A stretch of 63,630 nucleotides of DNA. Source: Verrucomicrobiota bacterium (GTDB taxonomy: Bacteria > Verrucomicrobiota > Verrucomicrobiia > Limisphaerales > J093). Under the pieces are notes generated by a model, which searched no databases, was not told the origin of the DNA, and saw only the letters and a program-made list of their open reading frames with translations. The stretch is from contig JAKLFY010000035.1 of the NCBI GenBank assembly GCA_022710935.1, positions 1 to 63,630 of the forward strand. Direction: 5' to 3'. Shown here piece by piece: positions 6,772 to 63,630 of this stretch; within the stretch, counting starts at the first letter, position 1, and each line of letters starts with the position of its first letter. The translations under genes were made by a program, and so were the position numbers.

Positions 6772-7944
6772 TCATGCGGACTCGCGGAGCTCGGCCCTTC
6801 GACCGGCAATGAGCCCGGGGACGACCATCATGTGAAGGGCGAGCAGGAGGAGGAGACCGGCGACCAGGAACACCGCGAACAATCCCGCCATGCCCCACTG
6901 CGTGTGAACAGGCACCTCAGCGAGTGAGAAGAAAGGTCTCAACTGCTCCTGACGCACGACGTCCCGCAGAGCGACCAGGGGCGCCAGGGCCAGGAAGAAC
7001 GCCAGCGAAGCCATGAGCGGATAGGCCCACGAGGCTTTGTATCGCCCCAGGAAGACAAGCACCAGGCCGACGGACGCCATGGCCGTGCCCAGACCCAGGA
7101 GCAGCTTGGCCAGGCCCGCCGAGGTGACGTGTGAGCGAAGGTCGTCCGGCATCGCAGAAAGGATCCAGACACCGGCAACTGCTTCGAGCACCATGCCCAG
7201 GACGGCCACGCTCACGGCAATCCGGTGATTGTGTCTTCCCTCTTCGGTCAGACCCCACTTGAGCATCATGACGCCCCGGAACAGGATGGCGACGCCCGCC
7301 ACCGTGAAACCGGGCGCCAGAATCAGCAACCACCGCGCAAAGAGCGTTGGGTCGTCCATGTTCAGATTCCGGCCTCCAGGCGACTTCGCGTAAAGCCCCA
7401 TCCACTTCTCGGGCGAGACCGACAACGTGATGTTATTGACGAAGAAGAAGCCGACGCCCAGCAGTGCCATCGCCGCCAGAACCGAGAGTAGCAGGACGCC
7501 GGGATGCTCCGGGTTCTTCACGAGCTTCTGGTAGTAGAACACCCCGTACAGGAAGACCACCAGGGGAATCACCAGAATCCAGTGAAACCCGAGCAGAATC
7601 GACGAGGAGTAAAACATCTGCCCGTACAGAACCTGGACGAAGAGCAGCGGGGGTATGCCGAACGTGATCAGGTACGAGGTGCCCAGCGGCAGCAAATCCC
7701 GCAGATACCTCGCCAACCGGTCGTCGTACTGCTTCCTCGCGATCCTCAGCCACAGGTAGATGAAAACGCTCCCGACCGTCAGGTTCATCGCCAGGAAGTG
7801 CAGGGTCAGCGTGAAGTAGGACAGCGCCTGCAGCAGGATCGGCGGAACCGGATAGCCCAGCGGATCGGGACTCGGGATTGGAAGACCGCCGCCGCTCGCG
7901 GTCGCAGCGGCCAGCACGCCAGCCATCGCGAGTGCGGTGCTCAT
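6772..7944 (-). CDS. Multi-spanning bd-like oxidase subunit, last gene of respiratory operon
   Basis: A 390-residue membrane protein with about eight hydrophobic helices. Its N-terminal helices (ALSYFTLTLHFLAMNLTVGS, then LGTSYLITFGIPPLLFVQ) resemble the partner gene's cytochrome bd subunit I-like helices, including a His in the first helix. It is not an ordinary CydB by eye. The start at 7944 overlaps the stop of the upstream cytochrome gene by four bases (ATGA), so the two are translationally coupled and almost certainly subunits of one complex. A longer upstream reading exists, but its Arg-rich sequence is an out-of-frame shadow of the upstream gene. Probable role: second membrane subunit of a non-canonical bd-superfamily oxidase. 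Confidence 0.65.
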   Translation of the reverse strand: MSTALAMAGVLAAATASGGGLPIPSPDPLGYPVPPILLQALSYFTLTLHFLAMNLTVGSVFIYLWLRIARKQYDDRLARYLRDLLPLGTSYLITFGIPPLLFVQVLYGQMFYSSSILLGFHWILVIPLVVFLYGVFYYQKLVKNPEHPGVLLLSVLAAMALLGVGFFFVNNITLSVSPEKWMGLYAKSPGGRNLNMDDPTLFARWLLILAPGFTVAGVAILFRGVMMLKWGLTEEGRHNHRIAVSVAVLGMVLEAVAGVWILSAMPDDLRSHVTSAGLAKLLLGLGTAMASVGLVLVFLGRYKASWAYPLMASLAFFLALAPLVALRDVVRQEQLRPFFSLAEVPVHTQWGMAGLFAVFLVAGLLLLLALHMMVVPGLIAGRRAELRESA

Positions 7945-9365
7945 TGCGCCACCTCCGCCCCAGCCACTTCGAGACCGCGCAACGCCTGCCCGCGCCCGCC
8001 GGGGTCGAGACCGTTCCTTTCGGCCGTGGCCTGCGGATCGCGCACCAGGTCGCGCGGATCGACGGTCTCGCCGCGGAGGGAGAGCACGTAGGCCACCAGT
8101 GCGGCCTTGTCCAACGCATCCCCCTGAAACGGCGGCATCACCCCCATGTCCTGCATCGTGCCCAGCCACCGGGAGCCGAACTCGGGAGTCCAGTCGCGGG
8201 TCCGGTAGACCACGGACCGATAACCGTCGCGCGTGTGGCAACTGGCGCATTGGAGGCGGAAGACCTGTTCGCCGTGGGCGAGCGTGCGGGGCGCGACGCC
8301 GCCGCGCCACTTGGCCTTCTCAAGATAGGAACCATTCAGTTGAGCCGGGTCTTTGGCGTCCTTCACCCAGAGCCCGTTCGAGTAAAGGACCCCATGAATC
8401 ACGTACGGTTTGCGGCCCATTTCACGGAAGAACTCCGCCCCCATAATCCCCAACTGGGCCACCAACAGCATCGAGATGGCCGCAATGGTGTTGACCGTCT
8501 TGGGATACGCGGCGAACACCAGCGTTCCCACGACCAGAAGCGTCCCCGCCACCCCGGCGAGGATGGCCATCCGGGTGAGCGCCGAGAGCGTCCCGCCAAC
8601 CACTCCCACGGTTCCACCGCCAAGGATCGAGACCGTGCTTGCGGGCAGGGTCGTGAAGTACCAGTAGCTCAGGCCGGGAACCAGGATCGCCGCGGGAATC
8701 ACCCACTTCACGCAGAACTGGATGATGCGCGCCTTGAATTCCTCATCCCGGATGCGGCTCGCCACGAGGAAACCGGCCAGACCGGCCAGCAGGAACATCG
8801 TCACGGTGCGGATGAGCAGAGCCGGGAAATACCCGGGATTGAAGAACCCGGCCGCGATGTCCTTGTTCTCGAGCGTCCAGGCGCCCGGGGTGAGCATGAA
8901 CGTCAGGATGCCGTTGATCACCACCAGAGATCCCCAGGCGATGACGAAGTAGGCGCCTGCGAGAAAAGTCTGCATCCGCGGCGTGTTGCGTTTGAACCCG
9001 TAGTAATACAGGTAGAGCACGGTCAGTTCGCCCAGGAAGAAAACCCACTCGATGGCCCAGGCGAAGACGAACTGGTGAATCAGCAGGCTGGTGGCTTCGG
9101 CGCTTGCCAGTTGGATCGAGAACCAGATGCCAACGCCAGTCGTGGCCCCCACAACCGTCGTGTACACCAAAAAGAAGGTGGCGAACTTGTGCAGCCAGTC
9201 GCGGATCCGCTGCCCGTCAGGCTGTCGCCTCGACCAGATCTCGGCCACGACCAGGAACGCGCCCCCGCCCACCGCGACATGCGAGATGAGCACGTGGATG
9301 ATCGCGATGATCGCCACCACCAGACCCGCGCCCAAGCCCCCGACATCCCAGATTGGATAGTTCAT
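7941..9365 (-). CDS. Cytochrome bd subunit I-like protein fused to a c-type cytochrome
   Basis: A 474-residue membrane protein. Helix 1 carries H24 and H29 (AIIAIIHVLISHVAVGGGAF), like the heme-ligand helix of CydA. A helical segment with two glutamates, AIEWVFFLGELTVLYLYYY, aligns with the E99/E107 region that handles protons and heme in CydA. The quinol-binding Q loop of true quinol oxidases is not apparent. The C-terminal part holds a covalent heme site, C373-A-S-C-H377, with a candidate distal Met in MQDMGVMPPF. The bd superfamily is known to contain cytochrome c-bearing members; assignment to it here is inference. Electrons probably come from the Rieske/cytochrome b genes just upstream, so it may be a cytochrome c-fed oxygen reductase. 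The gap to the cytochrome b gene is 40 bases. Confidence 0.72.
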   Translation of the reverse strand: MNYPIWDVGGLGAGLVVAIIAIIHVLISHVAVGGGAFLVVAEIWSRRQPDGQRIRDWLHKFATFFLVYTTVVGATTGVGIWFSIQLASAEATSLLIHQFVFAWAIEWVFFLGELTVLYLYYYGFKRNTPRMQTFLAGAYFVIAWGSLVVINGILTFMLTPGAWTLENKDIAAGFFNPGYFPALLIRTVTMFLLAGLAGFLVASRIRDEEFKARIIQFCVKWVIPAAILVPGLSYWYFTTLPASTVSILGGGTVGVVGGTLSALTRMAILAGVAGTLLVVGTLVFAAYPKTVNTIAAISMLLVAQLGIMGAEFFREMGRKPYVIHGVLYSNGLWVKDAKDPAQLNGSYLEKAKWRGGVAPRTLAHGEQVFRLQCASCHTRDGYRSVVYRTRDWTPEFGSRWLGTMQDMGVMPPFQGDALDKAALVAYVLSLRGETVDPRDLVRDPQATAERNGLDPGGRGQALRGLEVAGAEVAQ

Positions 9366-9405
9366 CTCTTTTGCCTGTCAAATCGTCCGGCCAGGCCCCT
9401 TCGCC

Positions 9406-10506
9406 TCAGGAGATCCAACCCCACACGGTCAGCACAACAAACCCGGCCAGCAACGCCACCCCCGCCCGCTCGATCCATGTTCCGCGCCTGTCCGAAGGCA
9501 CCGCCCGGTCGAAAAACGGGACCAGCGCGCACAACAGCGGGACAATCCCCATCAGGGCCATTCCCGCATACTCGAGCTTCCCGGGGAAGAGCTTCAGCGC
9601 CTGGTACTGCGCCAGGAAATACCACTCGGGCTTGATGCCCAGCGGCGCCGCTCCGAACGGATCCGCTTCCGCTTCCAACGCCCTGGGCCAGACCGCCGAG
9701 AGCGCCACCAGCAACGCGAAGGCCGCCAGCCAAACGGGCAGCTCCGACGCGAAATAGTCGAAGAAGAACTTCTTGTGCTTCTTCTGACGCGCCGGCAGAG
9801 CCGCAAACGAGTCGGGCTCGCTCATCCCCTGGATCTGCACGAAAAGCAGGTGCATCCCGATCAACCCCAGAACCGCAAGCGGCAGCACCACCACGTGCAG
9901 CACGTAGAATCGGCCGATCGTGTCGGTGGTGACCGTCGGCCCGCCTCGCAGCAGGCTGGCCATCCAGGGGCCGAGACCCGGCGCTTTCTCCATTTCCGTC
10001 AAGCCGACGTTGGTCGCGAAGAACGAAAGATCGTCCCACGGGAGCAGATAACCCGAGAATCCGAAGGCCATGCAGAGCCCCAGCAGCGCCAAACCGACCA
10101 GCCACGTGCCCTCGCGAGGCGCCCGATACGCCTTCATGAAGTACGCCGAGAACATGTGCAGAAAGAGCGTCAGGATCATCAGGTTCGCCGACCAGTGATG
10201 GATGCTGCGCATCAGATTGCCGTAGGGCACTTCCATCACGATCCGTTGCACCGATTGCCAGGGCTCGGCCGGTCGATAGTAGACCATCAGCAGGATCCCC
10301 GTGAAAACCTGGATCGCGAAAAAGAAGAGTGCCAGACCGCCCATCATGTACCACGCGGCGTGCCGATGCTCGGGCACTTTCTTGTTCCTTAAGAAATCGA
10401 CAATGGGCCACACCGGGAACCGCGCCAGCAGCGCCCGACCCAGCTTGCCCAGCGCCTTGTCCGCTGGCGGCAATTCCTTCAGAGCCTCCTCCGGTACCGT
10501 ATGCAT
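9406..10506 (-). CDS. Cytochrome b of a bc/b6f-type complex (b6 and subunit IV fused)
   Basis: The 366-residue quinol-oxidising membrane subunit. Heme ligands are H103 and H117 in helix B (SIHHWSANLMILTLFLHMF) and H204 and H219 in helix D (YVLHVVVLPLAVLGLIGMH). The 13/14 intervening-residue pattern is that of b6 rather than mitochondrial-type cytochrome b. The C-terminal part contains the PEWY quinol-site motif (GIKPEWYFLAQYQALK) and the extra helices of subunit IV. The ATG at 10506 is preferred over 10530 because the latter lies inside a palindromic repeat. It follows the Rieske gene and precedes the bd-like cytochrome gene in the same direction. Confidence 0.92.
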   Translation of the reverse strand: MHTVPEEALKELPPADKALGKLGRALLARFPVWPIVDFLRNKKVPEHRHAAWYMMGGLALFFFAIQVFTGILLMVYYRPAEPWQSVQRIVMEVPYGNLMRSIHHWSANLMILTLFLHMFSAYFMKAYRAPREGTWLVGLALLGLCMAFGFSGYLLPWDDLSFFATNVGLTEMEKAPGLGPWMASLLRGGPTVTTDTIGRFYVLHVVVLPLAVLGLIGMHLLFVQIQGMSEPDSFAALPARQKKHKKFFFDYFASELPVWLAAFALLVALSAVWPRALEAEADPFGAAPLGIKPEWYFLAQYQALKLFPGKLEYAGMALMGIVPLLCALVPFFDRAVPSDRRGTWIERAGVALLAGFVVLTVWGWIS

Positions 10507-47622: not shown

Positions 47623-47862
47623 GGAGGGGCGACGCCCTCGTCGCCCGCGAACGGATGCTGCGATTCCATTGGTCGGGGACGAGGACGTCCCCACCCCCAC
47701 GCCTCCGCGTGCACGAGTGGAGGGGCGACGTCCTCGTCGCCCGCGAACGGATGCTGCGATTCCATTGGTCGGGGACGAGGACATCCCCACCCCCACGCCT
47801 CCGCGTGCACGAGTGGAGGGGCGACGTCCTCGTCGCCCGCGAACGGATGCTGCGATTTCATT
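47623..47862. repeat. 96-bp tandem repeat, 2.5 copies (family R4 related)
   Basis: Units begin at 47623, 47719 and 47815 (exact 96-bp period). Each holds two hairpins, GGGCGAC-gtcctc-GTCGCCC and GGGGAC-gaggac-GTCCCC. The core also occurs once, diverged, inside the MITE-like element at 29103-29310. It fills most of the 400-base gap between the FucP gene and the next gene; no coding sequence is supported there. Confidence 0.9.
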
Positions 47863-47921
47863 GCCCTCGAGCAGGCGCGGCGTGATGAGCGAAACAGACA
47901 CATTTTCGAGCCGCACAGATA

Positions 47922-54560: not shown

Positions 54561-54722
54561 TCAACTTCCGGCAAGCGATAAGGTCTCCATTGCCTTTCGG
54601 CTCTCTGTCCAGTCACCACTCTTTGTTGAGGGGGTAAATAGGGGGTATTTTACCTTTCGTCCCCGCCACATTAACCAGTAGATGGCAACTACCACGGCAA
54701 TGATGAGGATGGCTGAGATCAT
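54561..54722 (-). CDS. Small single-span membrane protein (hypothetical)
   Basis: A 53-residue frame starting MISAILIIAVVVAIYWLMWR, one strong hydrophobic helix followed by a basic stop-transfer (RGRKVK). Its ATG overlaps the TGA of the preceding 38-residue frame (ATGA). This could be a coupled pair or the two halves of one small protein split by a frameshift. No family recognised. Confidence 0.4.
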   Translation of the reverse strand: MISAILIIAVVVAIYWLMWRGRKVKYPLFTPSTKSGDWTESRKAMETLSLAGS

Positions 54723-54896: not shown

Positions 54897-56138
54897 CTAA
54901 GAGCGTCTGCAGGCAAAGACCTCCAAAGCTTCGAGGTCTGACGGGGTCACAATCTCTATGCCATTCAACTCATTTGCCCGCCTTTGCAGACTCGCGGCGT
55001 TTTGGGCGGTCGGTGTCTGATAGACCGCCAGGAAGCGACGGGTGAAGCGTCCCCCGATCGTGCGGGCACGGTTGTCCAGTTCGTCCAGCAGCGGCACCAG
55101 CCTCGCTTTGAGTCCGCCGCGTTTGCAGCAGAAATAGGCGATCTGCACCCCATCCACCCCAACGATGTCCTCCTCGAGGTCGAATCCCCCGCGGCGTTCG
55201 CCGATGTTGACGGACCAGCGCAGGTCGCGAAATTGGCCGCTGCGCGATGCGGCATCCACCACAGCTACCTCCCACCAGCCGCCTGAGAGAAAAGCGAGGG
55301 CGAACTGGAGAGGCCGCACGGCGTCGAAATACTCTTGCGGCTCCGGGCGTTCGGTTTGGGCGAGCTCTTCGAGGTCCGGGCGTGTGGTTGCGGGTAGATA
55401 CAAGGCAGCGCCGTGCGCCCGCGCCAGTCCGGCTTCCAGCGCCAACTCTCCGACCCTTGGCGGCAGGAGCCAGGGTTTGTCGAACAAAGGAAGCCAATCG
55501 TCCGCACGACGCGGTTCGCGTCCGTTGGGGCAAAGGCCTTTGGATCCGTGGGTTGCACACCAGGCTTCCTCTTCGTGGTGTTGATGCTCGAGGAGATGGC
55601 GCGCAAGCCTCAAGTAAGGTTTCCAATCCCGTCCGCCTGTGACCCGCTGACGCCCGTTGGCGGCGGCGATAGGGTTGACGGTCAGGGCCTTTTGGTGGGG
55701 TGTAAAACTGAAATCGTCGCCAAGGACCGAGTTGAGCTTGGGCCCTGTGTGCCCATCGATGAACTGCCGATGGTCGGTGTCGACGTAGAGGGACACGGAC
55801 TCTTCGCGGAGGGCCGCTTCGTAGGCTCCGATCGACATCAGTTTGGTGCCGCCCGTGAAGTTGACCACGGGCGCGAGGGCGTCCGCCTTGGCCTCTTGCA
55901 TTGCGCGGATGACGGCGCGCGACGTTTCCGGGATCGAGGGCATCTCCGTCAGGCGGACGTCCTCCCGTGTCGTCTCGACGCTGGCTTGGCGAGCCGCTTC
56001 GAGGATATAGGCTGAGCGGGCTGCGGTCCTTGGCGTTGCGAGGTGAAACACCTTCGCGGGTTTGAGCGCGAGCAGCGGCAGGAGGTTCTGCATGGTCTGC
56101 TCGCTGATGAGTTGGATGAGGGCAAGGGGTTGAGGCAT
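54897..56138 (-). CDS. Card1/Can2-like CARF-domain nuclease (DUF1887 family)
   Basis: A 413-residue protein. The N-terminal CARF domain reads LIQLISEQTMQNLLPLLALK and later VVNFTGGTKLMSIGAYEAAL, the NxTGGTKxM ligand-pocket motif of the DUF1887/Card1 group. These bind cyclic oligoadenylate made by Cas10 during type III CRISPR immunity. The C-terminal part is a PD-(D/E)xK-type nuclease: SGGWWEVAVVD, then FDLEEDIVGVDGVQIAYFCCKRG, where the metal Asp and the Lys are kept but the usual Glu before the Lys is Cys. In known members, activation gives cutting of ssDNA, ssRNA or nicking of plasmids. Here the cOA-producing Cas10 is missing nearby. Confidence 0.85.
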   Translation of the reverse strand: MPQPLALIQLISEQTMQNLLPLLALKPAKVFHLATPRTAARSAYILEAARQASVETTREDVRLTEMPSIPETSRAVIRAMQEAKADALAPVVNFTGGTKLMSIGAYEAALREESVSLYVDTDHRQFIDGHTGPKLNSVLGDDFSFTPHQKALTVNPIAAANGRQRVTGGRDWKPYLRLARHLLEHQHHEEEAWCATHGSKGLCPNGREPRRADDWLPLFDKPWLLPPRVGELALEAGLARAHGAALYLPATTRPDLEELAQTERPEPQEYFDAVRPLQFALAFLSGGWWEVAVVDAASRSGQFRDLRWSVNIGERRGGFDLEEDIVGVDGVQIAYFCCKRGGLKARLVPLLDELDNRARTIGGRFTRRFLAVYQTPTAQNAASLQRRANELNGIEIVTPSDLEALEVFACRRS

Positions 56139-56171
56139 GGCGTGACACGTGGTGCGGCTTCTCTTCGAGTT

Positions 56172-56375
56172 TCAGTTTGCGCCGCAGCATTTTTTGTACT
56201 TCTTGCCGCTGCCGCACGGACAAGGCTCGTTTCGGCCAGGGCGTGGCTCGGAGCGAGCCGGCGTTGGGGGCGGTGCGAGACTCTCATCGGCGATGTCGTC
56301 GGAGTCGAGGGCGTCCAGATCCCAGGGGCGCGGCGCGGAGACCGGGCGTGACTTGTCATGGCACAGGGACAACAA
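56172..56375 (-). CDS. SEC-C motif small protein
   Basis: A 67-residue protein whose end, [20 protein letters not shown], is a SEC-C zinc-binding motif (C-x-C ... C-C), like the tail of SecA. The N-terminal 45 residues are acidic and disordered. Stand-alone SEC-C proteins are common, sometimes in defence or mobile regions; roles are unknown. It ends 33 bases before the Card1-like gene on the same strand and may be co-transcribed with it. Confidence 0.8.
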
Positions 56376-56519
56376 GGATTCGGACAGACCACGAAGCGGA
56401 CGCTGAAGGACTGTTTGGCAAAGGGCCCATGATCGAGGGTGAACTCTGCGGTCAACGCCCCTGGCGCCTCGGTGTTGGAACGGGCGGGAGCCGGCTTGGG
56501 GTCGAACTTCATGGCATGG

Positions 56520-56849
56520 TCAAGTAACAGCGGTGCGGAGTTGGTCGACTTCGGGAATCAGGCCCATGGGGATGAGCGGCAAGATCGACGGATGCGACTC
56601 GGCGAGGCGGGTCAGATCGAGCCGGTCCTTCTGGCGTTTGGTGGCGCGGCGCGCGGGGTCGGCGGCCGCCCAAAGCTTGCCGCGGACGAGGTCATCGAGG
56701 GCGGCCACGGGCAGGCGGACGCCGAAGAGCTCGGCTTCGACGGCGCGCGCGGGGAACGTGGCGTAGCGGTCATTGACGGTGACCCATCGGCCCTCAAAAG
56801 GGCACACCGCAGAGGGGCAGGGTGATGGGAAATCAAGCGGACTGCTCAT
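56520..56849 (-). pseudogene. Probable remnant of a nucleotidyltransferase-like antitoxin/defence protein
   Basis: A 109-residue frame. The C-terminal part (LFGVRLPVAALDDLVRGKLW, then RRATKRQKDRLDLTRLAESH) matches the end of a nucleotidyltransferase-like family common in Verrucomicrobiota, usually about 160 residues with an N-terminal GSxxxxD site. Here the N-terminus is short, Pro/Cys-rich and lacks that site, so the gene looks truncated by recombination. It could instead be a short functional member. Confidence 0.5.
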
Positions 56850-56900
56850 CTGGCGGACAGACTAACTGCTGGCTGGTCGCGGGGCAAGCGGGGCAGGCGA

Positions 56901-56975
56901 CTAGCCTGCATTTCTCAACACCTTTTGCCACCGCGAAGCCGGAGTTCAGAAGAGAGAAGTCAGCATGCAGGCTAG
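56901..56975. repeat. 75-bp palindromic repeat (family R1)
   Basis: Bounded by CTAGCCTGCAT and ATGCAGGCTAG-type ends (perfect CTAGCCTGCA/TGCAGGCTAG) with an interior related to the 10520 copy (CCACCGCGAAGCCGGA). It lies between the nucleotidyltransferase remnant and the RAMP fusion gene. Confidence 0.82.
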
Positions 56976-56999
56976 GAAAGCGCGCTCCTTTTTGGTCAA

Positions 57000-57101
57000 G
57001 GTCGCCTCTTGCGTTTACGCATCGAGCCACCGGTGGTCGAGCGGCGGTATCGGGTGAGCCTCGCCTGCGAGGTCGAAATCGAGGAACTCATGCGAGATTA
57101 G
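57000..57101 (+). pseudogene. Possible 3' fragment of an unidentified gene
   Basis: A plus-strand frame with no start reads about 33 residues, RLRIEPPVVERRYRVSLACE then VEIEELMRD, to a stop at 57099-57101. It has protein-like composition but no upstream continuation beyond the R1 repeat. I do not recognise it; it may be debris from the rearrangement of this region. Confidence 0.25.
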
Positions 57102-57103
57102 GC

Positions 57104-58081
57104 TCACAGCTCCTGCCAAGTGTCGGGCTGCGATTGATGACTATCCAGAGCCGCCCGGGCCCGGTCGAGTATGTCCCTCTGCGAGGCGGTTATCAGCAAG
57201 CGCAACTGGCCGCCGAGTCGCACGATCTTGAATCTCACTTTCGACGCTTCGCGCCCGCCCCGCGCTTTGCCGAAGATGTGCGGCAATCCATCGACTGTAT
57301 CGGTGGCGGCTTGCCTCAATGCGTCGAGGCTGTCGCCGATTTCGCGTCCTGCGATGAAGACGGGCCAACTGCAGCCCAATCGGTCCAGGCGCTGGCGCAG
57401 TTCGGACGGGGTTTGGGGCGCCGTACCGTCGGCGGGCCAGACATTGCCGCCGCCGCGATTGGCACGCAGACCCAAGGCGCCGAGCAGAAGCCAGACTTCG
57501 AGAGCGGCCTCGACTCTTGCCTGGAGCTCAGGGCGCAACGGGCCAAAACGGCTGATGACCTCAAGTTTGAAGTTGGCGCCAGCTTTGAATGCGGCTTGAG
57601 GGCTGGCCTGCCCACCATGCTTGTGCGGTAGAGTGGGAATTCCAGGTGTGGGGGCAGGTTGGGCGCGGATCTGAGTGGCTTCGAATGTCTCAACTCGGCC
57701 TCCAAATGACCTGCGGAGATCATCAAGGAAACGAGCTGCATTGGCATTGGCTGCCGGTGACAGCCCGTGGGCAGCCTTTGCGACCGTGGCCATCTTGGCT
57801 GCCACGCTGGCGTCACGCAGGAGTCTGTCGGCCTTCTCTGGATTCCTTTCTGTAAGCCTGTCTGCTTGGCTCTTCAAATTGGAAGGATCCTTGGTGAGCA
57901 GGTCGGCGCCTCGGCTGACAATCCGCAGCACGCTCCATCGGCTGGCCTGATCCAGCTTCTTGCCGCCTCCGAGTGCGGACTCCTTGGGCAGCGCGAATTT
58001 CTGATGCAACAGCGAGCGGTTTTCGACCGCCTCGGCCCAGTCGCCGATGAGTTGGCGGACGTCGGGGCTAATCGGAATCAT
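57104..58081 (-). CDS. Type III-B CRISPR RAMP fusion: Cmr6-like N-terminus joined to Cmr1-like C-terminus
   Basis: A 325-residue frame. Residues 1 to about 120 (VENRSLLHQKFALPKESA, then ASRWSVLRIVSRGADLL) look like the start of Cmr6. From about residue 155 the sequence changes to the end of Cmr1: LPHKHGGQASPQAAFKAGAN, then WLLLGALGLRANRGGGNVWP, the Gly/Arg loop of RAMP proteins, and a Cmr1-like tail VRFKIVRLGGQLRLLITA. Cmr6 and Cmr1 are normally separate proteins of about 300-400 residues each. The frame is open throughout. The start overlaps the Cmr2'-'Cmr5 remnant by 14 bases, consistent with cmr5-cmr6 order. Probably a deletion product. Confidence 0.62.
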   Translation of the reverse strand: MIPISPDVRQLIGDWAEAVENRSLLHQKFALPKESALGGGKKLDQASRWSVLRIVSRGADLLTKDPSNLKSQADRLTERNPEKADRLLRDASVAAKMATVAKAAHGLSPAANANAARFLDDLRRSFGGRVETFEATQIRAQPAPTPGIPTLPHKHGGQASPQAAFKAGANFKLEVISRFGPLRPELQARVEAALEVWLLLGALGLRANRGGGNVWPADGTAPQTPSELRQRLDRLGCSWPVFIAGREIGDSLDALRQAATDTVDGLPHIFGKARGGREASKVRFKIVRLGGQLRLLITASQRDILDRARAALDSHQSQPDTWQEL

Positions 58082-58235
58082 CGCTGCCTCCCTCGCGATT
58101 GCCCTTCTTGACGAAGCGTTTGGCGTAGGACAACCAGGCCAGCGCCTCGTCAGTGGCTTGTTTGAGTGTCGAGCTGTCCGCCTGCTGCGTCAGGTAGGCG
58201 GCGAGTTTGCGTTTCCAGAAGCTGGGTTCAGTCAT
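58068..58235 (-). pseudogene. Cmr2 (Cas10) start fused in frame to Cmr5 end: deletion remnant
   Basis: A 55-residue frame. The first 15 residues, MTEPSFWKRKLAAYL, match the start of Cmr2/Cas10 (normally followed by HDPP and the HD domain). The rest, TLKQATDEALAWLSYAKRFV then KKGNREGGSDDSD, matches the C-terminal helix and tail of Cmr5. Everything between, about 5 kb in a full operon (most of cmr2, all of cmr3 and cmr4, most of cmr5), is absent. No Cas10 Palm or GGDD motif remains, so neither target binding nor cyclic oligoadenylate synthesis is possible from this locus. Confidence 0.7.
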
Positions 58236-59020
58236 GGCGACAGGACAGTTGATGGCGTCAGGCCGATGGCGGCCTCGACGGACGGGCGTGCTGGTTGCGG
58301 TTGCGCACGGGGCCAGTCTCGCCGGGAAGGCGGGCGAAGCCAAACCGGAGGACGTCGGCGGACGTCCCGGGGACAGCGGCGCAGACGATGGAGGGGGCGG
58401 TGATGATACAGTGTTCGCGGGGCTCAGCCCGGTCGGATGACGCAGGGGCGCTTCGAGCCGAGCCGATTCGAACCTTGGGCGGTACGGCTTCCACGAACAA
58501 ACGCGTCGAGGATGCGGACAATGGGGAATCTTGCCAACCGAAAAAGTGAGTCGTTGAAAAATGCGGGCGCGGGCCCAGGGCGGGACTGATTGTCTTCTCC
58601 TTCTGTAACGGCTCGGATATCGAACCGCGAATGGACGCGAATGGACGCGAATCGAGCCGCGCCGGACCGATCATCAACTCCATTGCGTCTAAGAAACGGG
58701 GGCATGGGGAGTCATATACACGGAGCCTGCGAGCCGGGCGCGATGGACGCGGTGGTGAAGGTGACCACATCGTTCGTTCTCATCCGTTTGCCGGTCGAGT
58801 CAGGAGCGACGATTGTATGAAACGAGGAACTGCGCCCACGAGATCGGTGGCGGTTTGGCCGGATGTGGGCTCGATGAGCTATGCAGCCTGGCTGCGCGCG
58901 GTAGCGCTGCGGCCCCAGCCCTCATTGCGGATCCCGGTGACGCCGGCCAACCGGGAGTGCCTGCGGCGTCTGCGCATCGCGGAGGCCGAGGCCTGGGAGT
59001 CGACGGCGACGTCGACGGCG
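58236..59020. other. 785-base region without a convincing gene
   Basis: Upstream of the Cmr remnants and downstream of the CotH gene. It contains a short tandem of GCGAATGGAC near 58628-58651 and several weak frames. The best is a 72-residue plus-strand frame, 58817-59035, with VAVWPDVGSMSYAAWLRAVA and ending in the repeat at 59021, but no family is recognised. No CRISPR repeat-spacer pattern is visible here or anywhere in 54-59 kb. Confidence 0.45.
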
Positions 59021-59132
59021 CAGACCCTAAGTTAGTACTGAGCGAGCCCTCGTGCATGTGTTTGACATGGCCGGTCCGTCGCCCGCCAGGCCTGGCGCAA
59101 CTCGCAAGCTTCTAACTTAAGGGCTGACCCTG
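59021..59132. repeat. 112-bp element with R2-type ends at the CotH gene stop
   Basis: The right end, ACTTAAGGGCTGACCCTG (59115-59132), is identical to the arm of the 113-bp element at 21197-21309. The left end (CAGACCCTAAGTTAG) is a partly degenerate inverted copy, so the overall size matches too. The right arm encodes the last residues (ARVSP) and the TAA stop of the CotH-domain gene. Confidence 0.7.
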
Positions 59133-62100
59133 GCCTCTTGCACCATCAGGATCTGGTAGAACCGCAACGCAACGTCGTCGGTTGTCGAGTCGGTCAGGCT
59201 GGCGGTCGCGCTTTGAGCTTGCACTTCGGCCGGCAGTTCGGTCCAGGAACCGTTCTCGAGATCCTCGCAATACCGCACGCGATAGGTGCGTCCGGGCAAG
59301 GCCTCCCATGTCAGCGTCACGCCTGTGGCGGGATCCGAGCGCACCTCGAAGATCCGGATCTCCGGCCACTCGGTGGACGCGATGCGGTTCGGTGCCCCCG
59401 GCGTGGGCGGAGACATCCGGTAATAGGGTAGTGGCGCGGCGTCGGGCCAGCGCCCCTCGCTGCGGTCGGTTTCCTGCGCAGCGAAGACCACCTGATCGAT
59501 GGGCCGGCCCGTGGCGTCCGCGAGAAGGATCTGTTCCCCCAGTTGGTCGAGTCGGAAGTTCACGTGCAGATCGCCATTGGGGCGGGACTGTTCGGGCTGC
59601 CCGTCGGCCCAGACGAGGAGATAACCGTGTGGCGGGATGTAGAAGCCCTGCGGAACGACGAACAGAGACGGTGTCGCCGGATTGTCGCTGAGCCAGAACC
59701 CGGCGATCGAGACCGGGCTGGGGCTTGGATTGTGGATTTCGAACCAGTCGTCGAACGCGCCATCCGCGGGATCGGCCACAGCGCCCTGGTTCGAGGCCAT
59801 CCATTCGTTGATGAGGAGGTCGGGGGGCGGCGTGTTTGTGCTCGAGCACTCGATCCGGATCGAGTCGGTGGCGTCCGCGACGGGTTGTCCGGCGCGGTCG
59901 AGTCCCTGGACGTCGAGCGCGTTGGCGCCCGGTTGCAGGGTCAGCCTGAGGCTCCAGCGTGTGGGTGAGAACCAGGAGAGGGGGTAGGGGATCCCGTTGA
60001 CGGTGATCGTGCGGATCCAGACCGGGGCGGTGCCGGTGAGGGTGACGACGGTTTGGGGGGTGGTGTGGTCGTTGCCATTATTGGTCGTGATGGCAAAGGC
60101 GGCCTCGACCGTTTTCAACTGGCCTTCGAGGTACGCGCGGCGCTGACTGATCCAGGACTTGATGGCACCGGGGCTGTTCAGGCCGACATTGTTGGCGCGG
60201 AACGCGGCGTACTTGGCGTCGAGGATGGGGTCGATGGCGCTGGCGCGGAAGAACGTCTGCATGGCCTCGTGCAGGCCGGCCCAATAGCGCCGGACGAAGG
60301 CAGGCGTCTGATACATGCGCTGGATGGCGGGGTCGCCCACGTCGAACAGCGGCGCGTCGGGGGGGTCGTTGAACACGCCAAGGCCGACATCGAAGTCCCA
60401 GCACATCAGTTTCCAGGAATCGCGTTCGGGCTTGTAGAGGAAGGTATTTTTTGCGTTGGGATTGCCGAACGCATCCCAGAACGACGCCAGGTCGTTCATG
60501 GCGAAGGTCAGCATCCAGTGATCGACGTCGACAATCGTCTCGACGCGTCCGAGGTACTCGTTGGTGGCGTTGACCGCATCGACCAGGGCGAAGAGCGGCG
60601 CGAAGTCGTTCGCGGACCCGCGCACGGCGCGGGGGCGCCAATTCCAGCGGTAACGGGCGGTGTTTTTGCGGCCGTCGGGCAGGGTGAAGGGTTCGAGGGT
60701 GTTGAGGAGGCACGGATCGAGGCGGTAGCCGGCGTTGTCGAACTCGTTCCAGCAATCGGTCTTGTAAAGGTGCCCGCGGTCGTCGCCAGGGAACCATTCC
60801 TCGATGGTGTCGCTGCCCGGCTGCTGGACATCGTCGTAGATGGCGCCGCGCCGAATGCCGTTGACGAACAGGTGCACATAGCGGCGGTACATGTTGGGCA
60901 GGCCGTACTGATCGAGGAACCAGTACATGAGCTGTTCGCGTTGGTCGGTGTCGTCGCGCACGGGCCAGTCGAGCGTGACATGCCGTTCGCCGAGAAACCG
61001 GTCGTCGGCGGGAAGGTTGACGTCATACCCGCAGAGATTGCCGGTGGGGCTGGTGTAACCGGGGGAGGTGTAGGAACTGCCGCTGTAATGCGCGCCGGCG
61101 TTGTAGATGACCCGGTTGGTTCCATAGACGAACGTGGCGTCGACGTCGTCGTTGCTCATTTTTTCGCGGCTGGCCCAATGGGCGTGGGACGCCGCAGTGA
61201 TCCAGAGATGATAGTTGGCGAAAGCGCCCGGCACATGGTCCTCGCCGACCCTGACGAGGCATTCGCGCGCGGGCGCGTCGGCGGGGAACCGGTTGGTCGC
61301 GGGCGCGGCGTGGGCATCGAGGGCCTCGACAAAGAACGCGACGAGGGTTCCCTTCGGCTGGGCGGGGAGAACAGCCGAGTAGATGCCGTCATTCGGGAAT
61401 TCGTCGGATCCCGCGCCGTCATCAGACATGGCCACCGCCGTGGTGACGGGACCGGGATCGATGCGGTAGTGGACGAATGCGCCGGCAATCCCATCGGGAT
61501 CGCTGAGGCGGGCTTCGACGCGAATGGGTTGTCCGGACGGCGGCAAGACAGGGCGATGGGCGACGCCGGTGATGGCGGGAGCTGCATTGGCGCGGTTCTG
61601 GCTGTTGCGCGCGGCGGGGGTGCCGAGATTGTCCGGGAGGGTCAGGCGTCCACAGGCTTCGAGAGCGCCCCCGCGAAGGCGCAGGAGGATTTCAGGGTGC
61701 CCTTTGAGCCAGCGGACCCGCGCGCGAATCGTGACCGACGATCCGACGGGGATGCTCGATTGGAGCGGGGTGAAGGCGCGGTTGGCGACGTGATCTCCGC
61801 GTTCGGTGGCCACGAGGCGCAGCGAGCGGGCGCTCTGATGGCCTCCGTTCTTCTCCCACGCGCTGTGGCTTTGAGTGCCTTGGAATGTCCAGCCGTTCAG
61901 ACCGCTCTCGAAGGTCGAATTGGCAATCCGATTGTTGCCGGCGACGAGAACTTGCACCGTGTCGACCAGCGCCTCGCCCGGGCCCATCAGGAAGATCTGG
62001 AGTTGTTCGGCGGAGGGCATCGACGGATGCGGCGAGACGAGGGGGCCGGTGGCCTCGACGGTTGTCCAGGGGGCCTTGGCGGTCTCGTCGCTGTCGGCCC

Positions 62101-63630
62101 AGTTGGGAGCCAGATCGGCGTCGGCTCGAGGATCGATCCGTTCCAGACTGCTGCCGCCGCCGTCCGCCCAGCGACCCCATCGACCGCCATCGCGGTAGGT
62201 GACCTCATCGATCTGCACCCATGCGGGTTCGGGGGCCGGTTCCTCCTCCGGGGAGGCCGCGCCATCGAATCCGAGGGGCGCTTCGAGCGCGATGCGCTCG
62301 CCTCGACCGGAGAGAGTGCCTGTGAAATCTCCGAGGATGAGAGCGGGATCGACGTCGGGGCGATTGGCCCGGAGGCGCGCCGCGTTGCGGGCAACCACCA
62401 GACAACCGCCCGGGGCGATCGGCGTGCCGGGTGGAAAGCGGAACTCGATGCCATCGGCGAGGCGCCATCCGCCCAGATCGAGCTCGTCCGGCCCGGAGTT
62501 CTGGAGTTCGACGTATTGGTCGTCGTCGGTCTCCGAGATCGGGTGGTACATGATTTCATTGATCACGACGGCCGAGCGGCGCGGACGCGCGTTGATCGCG
62601 CCTGGCGTGGGCCGATCGAGTGCGTGCAGGCGATCCGCGCCATCGGGGAACCGTCCGAAGGCCGCGCCCTGCCATTGGGGGGTGAGACGGACGGCATCGA
62701 GGATGCGGTCGAGCGCGGGGTGGCTCAGGAACACCGATTCGCCGGCTGCATCCAGGGCGAACCCGAGTTGGGTCTCGTCGAACACGACGAACCCACCCGG
62801 GGCGAGCACCGTGCCATCGGGGATGCGGAATTTGGCTGCGATGCGATCGTCGCTCAGGTAACAGCCGGCGAGGTCGGCCGGGCGCGGGCTGCTGTTGTAG
62901 AGTTCGATGAAATCGGGCTGGCCTGGATCGGCATGGCCGAGGAGTTCGTTGATGACAGTGCCGGCCAGCGGATCCGCGGGGGGCGGGTCGGGCCTGCCGG
63001 GCGAGCCGCCCCTGGCCATGCTCGAAGCCCAGGCACGGGAGTCCCTCTCGCCATAGCTCGGGCAAACCAAAACCAACGAGTGACCTGTGCCGTCCGGGGC
63101 GACAGGCCAGGGGTAACGGTCCGCATAAGAGACCTCGAGGACGACGGCGCCGGAGCGTTTGCGGAGGCGGATGGTGCCGCCTTCGTTGGCGAGTTTGCCG
63201 TCGAAGGGGCCCAGCACGTTGGTTGCGCCGGACACCGCGCGCAGGTCGTCAGGCACGGCGGCCACGACGAGATAACCGTTGCCGGCAAGGATTGTGTTCG
63301 GAGGAAAGGTGTAGTCGCATTCCCCTGAGAAGCGCCATCCGCTGAGATCCTCGAAGAAGGGATTCGAGTTGTAGAGCTCGATGAACTCGACGTTGTTCGA
63401 GTCGGCGCGAGGCGCGGGCTTGTACATGATTTCCGAGAAGACTATCCCAGTGCGGCGGCTTGACGGGCCGAGCGGCTCGCTGGTGTTCGGCGAAGGCCCG
63501 ACCACCGGGCTGGTCGTGACACCGGTGTTGCGTATCTGCGCGCTCATCAACACGCCGTTGGTGTGGCTGGAAATCGCGAACCCGAGGTAAAGCGTGTTGC
63601 TCGCCGTCATGGTGATGCCGCACACGGGCG
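59117..63630 (-). CDS. Giant secreted protein with CotH kinase-like and lamin-tail domains (5' end outside window)
   Basis: At least 1502 residues; the frame is open to the right edge, and the first residues (ITMTASNTLYLGFAISSHTN) look like the end of a DUF1349/LamG-type sandwich, so the start lies beyond the window. Three lamin-tail domains occur at about 60-170 (VFSEIMYKP), 222-345 (VINELLGH) and 353-470 (VVINEIMYHP). A CotH spore-coat/kinase-like domain spans about 800-1185 (NGIRRGAIYDDVQQPGSDTI, then KLMCWDFDVGLGV, with metal-site Asp residues). A fourth lamin-tail domain is at about 1270-1405 and a fibronectin-like C-terminal domain follows. CotH domains in other proteins act as atypical kinases; role here unknown. 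Confidence 0.85.
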   Translation of the reverse strand, partial: PVCGITMTASNTLYLGFAISSHTNGVLMSAQIRNTGVTTSPVVGPSPNTSEPLGPSSRRTGIVFSEIMYKPAPRADSNNVEFIELYNSNPFFEDLSGWRFSGECDYTFPPNTILAGNGYLVVAAVPDDLRAVSGATNVLGPFDGKLANEGGTIRLRKRSGAVVLEVSYADRYPWPVAPDGTGHSLVLVCPSYGERDSRAWASSMARGGSPGRPDPPPADPLAGTVINELLGHADPGQPDFIELYNSSPRPADLAGCYLSDDRIAAKFRIPDGTVLAPGGFVVFDETQLGFALDAAGESVFLSHPALDRILDAVRLTPQWQGAAFGRFPDGADRLHALDRPTPGAINARPRRSAVVINEIMYHPISETDDDQYVELQNSGPDELDLGGWRLADGIEFRFPPGTPIAPGGCLVVARNAARLRANRPDVDPALILGDFTGTLSGRGERIALEAPLGFDGAASPEEEPAPEPAWVQIDEVTYRDGGRWGRWADGGGSSLERIDPRADADLAPNWADSDETAKAPWTTVEATGPLVSPHPSMPSAEQLQIFLMGPGEALVDTVQVLVAGNNRIANSTFESGLNGWTFQGTQSHSAWEKNGGHQSARSLRLVATERGDHVANRAFTPLQSSIPVGSSVTIRARVRWLKGHPEILLRLRGGALEACGRLTLPDNLGTPAARNSQNRANAAPAITGVAHRPVLPPSGQPIRVEARLSDPDGIAGAFVHYRIDPGPVTTAVAMSDDGAGSDEFPNDGIYSAVLPAQPKGTLVAFFVEALDAHAAPATNRFPADAPARECLVRVGEDHVPGAFANYHLWITAASHAHWASREKMSNDDVDATFVYGTNRVIYNAGAHYSGSSYTSPGYTSPTGNLCGYDVNLPADDRFLGERHVTLDWPVRDDTDQREQLMYWFLDQYGLPNMYRRYVHLFVNGIRRGAIYDDVQQPGSDTIEEWFPGDDRGHLYKTDCWNEFDNAGYRLDPCLLNTLEPFTLPDGRKNTARYRWNWRPRAVRGSANDFAPLFALVDAVNATNEYLGRVETIVDVDHWMLTFAMNDLASFWDAFGNPNAKNTFLYKPERDSWKLMCWDFDVGLGVFNDPPDAPLFDVGDPAIQRMYQTPAFVRRYWAGLHEAMQTFFRASAIDPILDAKYAAFRANNVGLNSPGAIKSWISQRRAYLEGQLKTVEAAFAITTNNGNDHTTPQTVVTLTGTAPVWIRTITVNGIPYPLSWFSPTRWSLRLTLQPGANALDVQGLDRAGQPVADATDSIRIECSSTNTPPPDLLINEWMASNQGAVADPADGAFDDWFEIHNPSPSPVSIAGFWLSDNPATPSLFVVPQGFYIPPHGYLLVWADGQPEQSRPNGDLHVNFRLDQLGEQILLADATGRPIDQVVFAAQETDRSEGRWPDAAPLPYYRMSPPTPGAPNRIASTEWPEIRIFEVRSDPATGVTLTWEALPGRTYRVRYCEDLENGSWTELPAEVQAQSATASLTDSTTDDVALRFYQILMVQEARVSP

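Follow-up and report, generated by a model that had tools for sequence, protein, structure and literature searches.

Two overlapping reading frames at 57104–58235 (minus strand) of the window, that is, of the whole 63,630-nucleotide stretch analysed, are very probably what is left, in decayed and non-functional form, of a type III-B (Cmr) CRISPR-Cas system that was once complete and was recently deleted. The frames consist of collinear fragments homologous to the intact operon of those relatives, with segments missing. Two features that the initial annotation had missed, a single CRISPR repeat and a Card1-like gene on the same strand, indicate that the decay extends to the entire locus. Degraded CRISPR loci are a known kind of thing and the present example is a new one; the relic is real and unusually legible.

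The intact counterpart was found in Verrucomicrobia bacterium ADurb.Bin006 (G001, MWFF01000198.1), which belongs to the same genus as the window genome. Its contig carries six cmr genes in the order cmr2-3-4-5-6-1, the very order that the initial annotation had presumed to be ancestral, together with a TIGR02710 CARF gene, a Card1-like gene, a Csm6-like gene of the ring nuclease family, cas1, an array and a cas2-sized frame at the place expected for cas2. Cmr2, Cmr4, Cmr6 and Cmr1 exceeded the NCBIfam cutoffs (cmr6 with TIGR01898 at E 6.6e-31, cmr1 with TIGR01894 at E 3.7e-10); Cmr3 and Cmr5 gave family matches below cutoff and were placed by gene order as well. The window aligned to this contig in three pieces, ungapped or nearly so: 58195–58522 to G001 1597–1922 (81% nucleotide identity, blastn), 57675–58196 to 7537–8058 (522 bp, 90.0%, no gaps) and 57091–57674 to 9253–9836 (84%). 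The cmr pieces are collinear at 81–90% nucleotide identity, and both loci have the CRISPR repeat and the 14-bp cmr5/cmr6 overlap in common. However, besides all six cmr genes G001 possesses three CARF-type genes, cas1, cas2 and about 23 repeats, whereas the window holds a pair of fused stubs, a single CARF gene and a single repeat, and the chromosomal site of the cas locus differs between the two genomes.

The longer frame (57104–58081, minus strand) encodes 325 residues and, compared with G001, joins residues 1–135 of Cmr6 to the last 189 residues of Cmr1. Its residues 1–136 were 82% identical to G001 Cmr6, inside a 492-codon frame, and residues 131–324 were 78% identical to G001 Cmr1, inside a 266-codon frame located 1.2 kb further on. 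Since family HMMs alone failed on this protein (RAMPs HMM at E 0.1, below cutoff; no NCBIfam match; no Pfam, NCBIfam or PADLOC model above cutoff), its halves were assigned via G001, the only same-genus genome among the 97 related genomes against which it was searched. A Cmr6-Cmr1 fusion was absent from the 319 other genomes of the order searched, and wherever a genome of the order matched both halves, cmr6 and cmr1 were separate frames. No relatives of the protein were found in viral contigs, and the papers searched contained no report of such a fusion.

The shorter frame (58068–58235, minus strand) encodes 55 residues: Cmr2 residues 1–13, a shared Tyr14 and the C-terminus of Cmr5, as indicated by Pfam Cas_Cmr5, collinearity with G001 and the junction alignment. 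Cas_Cmr5 matched above its curated cutoff (E 1.6e-4), covering only positions 84–117 of the 119-position profile, and the PADLOC Cmr5 model matched too (E 5e-5). The Cmr2 start was assigned from the aligned DNA, which reaches 41 bases into G001 cmr2; the first cmr2 codons and the region upstream of them are retained at 58197–58522 (minus strand), within the piece of 81% identity. The initial annotation, which had read the two frames as a Cmr operon collapsed into two in-frame fusions, was borne out by the G001 genes matching each half; profile searches agreed for the Cmr5 part of the 55-residue protein and fell short of their cutoffs for the 325-residue one.

Both fusions are explained by two deletions, as had been proposed, with G001 collinear on either side of each junction. 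Junction 1 (58195/58196, minus strand) connects cmr2 to cmr5 at Cmr2 codon 14 and lacks 5,616 bp relative to G001, a figure that counts the 2-bp TA microhomology common to both deletion edges. Junction 2 (57674/57675, minus strand) connects cmr6 to cmr1 inside codon 136 of the 325-residue frame and lacks 1,194 bp, with no clear microhomology. Both positions fall within the ranges anticipated for them. We infer two separate events of illegitimate (non-homologous or microhomology-mediated) recombination: the larger would have taken away cmr3 and cmr4 entirely and cmr2 and cmr5 for the most part, the smaller most of cmr6 and the start of cmr1. Further loss would have affected cas1, cas2, a Csm6-like gene and the array except for one repeat. 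Both deletion lengths are divisible by three, and this coincidence would have left two open chimeric frames.

The retention of frame and gene overlap had been regarded as striking, an impression that faded upon alignment. The 14-bp overlap (58068–58081, with its counterpart at 7652–7665 in G001) was simply inherited, because it lies inside the single uninterrupted block of 522 bp (57675–58196, minus strand) that comprises the 3' end of cmr5 and the 5' part of cmr6. The chance that two random deletions both keep the frame is about 1/9.

Site-specific shortening and misassembly had also been offered as explanations. In G001, which is a relative and not the ancestor, the longest words that the deletion edges share measured 5–6 bp when 30 bp were compared and 8 bp when 100 bp were compared, and shuffled sequence gave words of equal length. 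Repeat-driven recombination and an assembler misjoin are both disfavoured by this. Fusions made by repeat-mediated or site-specific shortening, for example by recombination between direct repeats, are thus barely credible: the 2-bp microhomology at junction 1 would suit them, as would the Tyr-Leu codons on both sides of it, from which the true ancestor may have shared about 6 bp at most, but neither junction has direct repeats beyond the shuffle expectation and by eye the two have no motif in common. It is likewise very improbable that the true genome has a full operon of which the assembler skipped two stretches. The assembly is indeed a draft of 259 contigs; however, the deleted genes were not found elsewhere in it, a graph assembler needs long shared words to misjoin where the longest near the breakpoints are the 8-bp words found equally in shuffles, and one locus would have been hit by three separate losses (two deletions and the array). 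Illegitimate recombination is the mechanism we favour.

What remains would not suffice for interference. Of Cmr2, the Cas10 subunit whose palm/cyclase domain marks a functional type III-B system, residues 1–13 persist, and neither Cmr2 nor a Cas10 palm domain was detected elsewhere in the assembly (95.7% complete). Cmr3 and Cmr4 are absent, Cmr1, Cmr5 and Cmr6 are truncated, and no Cmr5 or RAMP family match was obtained elsewhere in the assembly. Instead of a guide-supplying array there is one repeat of its family genome-wide. With cyclase subunit, backbone subunit and guides all missing, neither RNA-guided interference nor cyclic oligoadenylate is to be expected, and the Card1-like protein would be left without its activator.

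Most likely, the two small fused genes no longer work. The AlphaFold2 model of the 325-residue fusion was poor (pLDDT 50.9, pTM 0.42) compared with intact G001 Cmr1 modelled from an equally thin alignment (pLDDT 69.8, pTM 0.68), for which a structure search returned solved Cmr1 structures as top matches. Judged by the latter model, the Cmr1 part of the fusion is devoid of its N-terminal strand and helices. Of Cmr6, the whole RAMP core is missing. Consequently, the complete RRM-type core with glycine-rich loop region of RAMP/Cas7-type proteins is not present, and the minimal RAMP protein suggested by the initial annotation found no structural backing.

The frame itself shows no sign of decay. 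Its 325 codons contain neither stop nor frameshift, none of the 30 positions at which at least 85% of Cmr1 relatives agree has changed, and the pairwise omega of the Cmr1 part against G001 was 0.29, below 1, a value that includes the time before the deletion. Under simulated neutral drift, with neutral lengths taken from the fit to the entire window branch, the frame stayed free of stops in about 2–25% of runs, and survived in less than 6% when frameshifts were added; stop-free survival is higher if the deletion is recent. The open frame, the conserved residues and omega fit a recent deletion and also some continued selection, a recent deletion being the simplest account of the intact frame. 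Four-taxon codon models disagreed among themselves and had saturated outgroups, so that they neither assign selection to the window branch nor separate these two readings. Outgroup-polarised counts for the Cmr1 part gave 4 synonymous and 14 nonsynonymous changes in the window versus 6 and 2 in G001 (Fisher p 0.026; p 0.12 for all parts together), which hints at relaxed constraint, yet the strictly conserved residues are untouched.

Selection might instead have kept the fusion, and perhaps the orphan Card1-like protein along with it; the fusion would then be a minimal RAMP-like protein serving, say, as RNA-binding regulator or dominant-negative subunit. The undecayed frame with its intact Cmr1 residues speaks for this, as do the translation coupling inherited through the 14-bp overlap and the likewise open Card1-like gene. 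We nevertheless consider it very unlikely, given the missing parts of both RAMP proteins and the poor predicted fold, the loss of all guide RNAs and partner subunits, the lack of a second example among 320 genomes of the order and the 1/9 odds that chance alone keeps the frame. A specific form of this idea, in which the fusion is expressed and maintained as a stand-alone, guide-free RNA-binding protein that acts with the Card1-like protein in Cas10-independent defence or regulation, is scarcely tenable. We retain the reading of a recent, non-functional remnant.

The Card1-like gene (54897–56138, minus strand) encodes a 413-residue CARF protein in an open frame, assigned by HMMs and by a relative in genome G026, and it is orphaned in that the assembly has no Cas10. 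It contains a CARF domain (CARF_Card1 at E 1.4e-10, above cutoff; PADLOC CARF_PDDEXK at E 2.2e-24) and matched the Can2 structure 7bdv (E 9e-7). As to the PD-(D/E)xK nuclease motif, in a weak alignment to Can2 the E-x-D and the lysine are kept and the glutamate of ExK is a cysteine; the G026 relative has alanine there, and by sequence this subfamily may possess an altered nuclease site. The G026 gene, 52% identical over almost the full length, adjoins cmr1, as do the homologues in G009 and G118. VC1899 of Vibrio cholerae is an orphan CARF nuclease which, like the window protein, belongs to the Can2/Card1 family and lacks an associated type III system (PMC7969007). With VC1899 as precedent, the orphan gene is the part of the locus that would most likely keep activity. 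Unlike VC1899, it still lies beside a repeat and the remains of its parent Cmr operon.

The Card1-like gene is separated from the cmr1 remnant by a spacer without homology (56139–57090, no strand assigned), in which HMMs detected SEC-C (E 2e-11) and AbiEii-like (E 0.041, below cutoff) fragments. These short fragments (56172–56849, minus strand) occupy the place at which G118 has a Csm6-like gene, and the AbiEii-like one is matched at 44% in G109.

The single CRISPR repeat (54582–54617, minus strand) is identical to the G001 array repeat at 35 of 36 positions and no other copy occurs in the genome. In G118, cmr1 is followed by a Csm6-like gene, a Card1-like gene, an array of 34 repeats, cas1 and, in the place of cas2, a small frame. 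As in the window, the Card1-like gene lies downstream of cmr1 and is followed by the array in matching orientation, and the distance from gene to repeat is similar (about 280 bp in the window, about 330 bp in G118). Since the repeat takes the position of the G118 array, the window keeps the stump of the same architecture. G118 differs in its intact cmr6 and cmr1 frames, the Csm6-like gene between cmr1 and the Card1-like gene, its 34 repeats of a related but different sequence, and its cas1 and cas2. The G001-type repeat had no exact match in viral contigs. A role of the lone repeat in guarding a CreTA-type module was considered and rejected, as any Cmr effector that could use it is gone.

Other CRISPR-related sequences occur in the same assembly (G000). 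Contig C1 (172000–191990) bears a CRISPR-Cas system of its own, which has a long array, a different repeat and a different cas gene order; by eye, the order of its genes and the starts of its proteins are similar to type I-C. On contig C112 (about 57764–59296), a 510-residue frame matched Cas1 in part (E 1e-34), and the 20 kb examined revealed no array.

Next to the cmr remnant, a CotH kinase/lamin-tail-domain (LTD) protein of 1502 residues is encoded at 59117–63625 (minus strand). It belongs to a family that is strongly expanded in such genomes (46 matches in G001, 89 in G005). Elsewhere in the window, at 47623–47863, a 96-nt unit is tandemly repeated in about 2.5 copies that are 96–98% alike. 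Between the window genome and G001, identity amounts to 95.9% for the RNA polymerase region, 91.6% for the flanking CotH/LTD gene and 81–90% for the cas remnants. Vertical descent of the locus at a single site was rejected, since in G001 no cmr locus adjoins the CotH/LTD gene. Given this gap in identity and the separation of flanking gene and cas locus in G001, the cas loci of the two genomes were probably gained or moved separately. Such separate gain or movement is common for defence loci.

The locus documents cleanly how a CRISPR system of several subunits comes apart, with large internal deletions and an array reduced to one repeat. It also holds a warning for annotation pipelines: short hypothetical genes may be operon remnants. 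If the fusion were functional after all, it would represent a new kind of RAMP-derived protein. Finally, the ancillary CARF effector is still open after the loss of the cyclase, and this order of loss bears on the origin of orphan CARF proteins.
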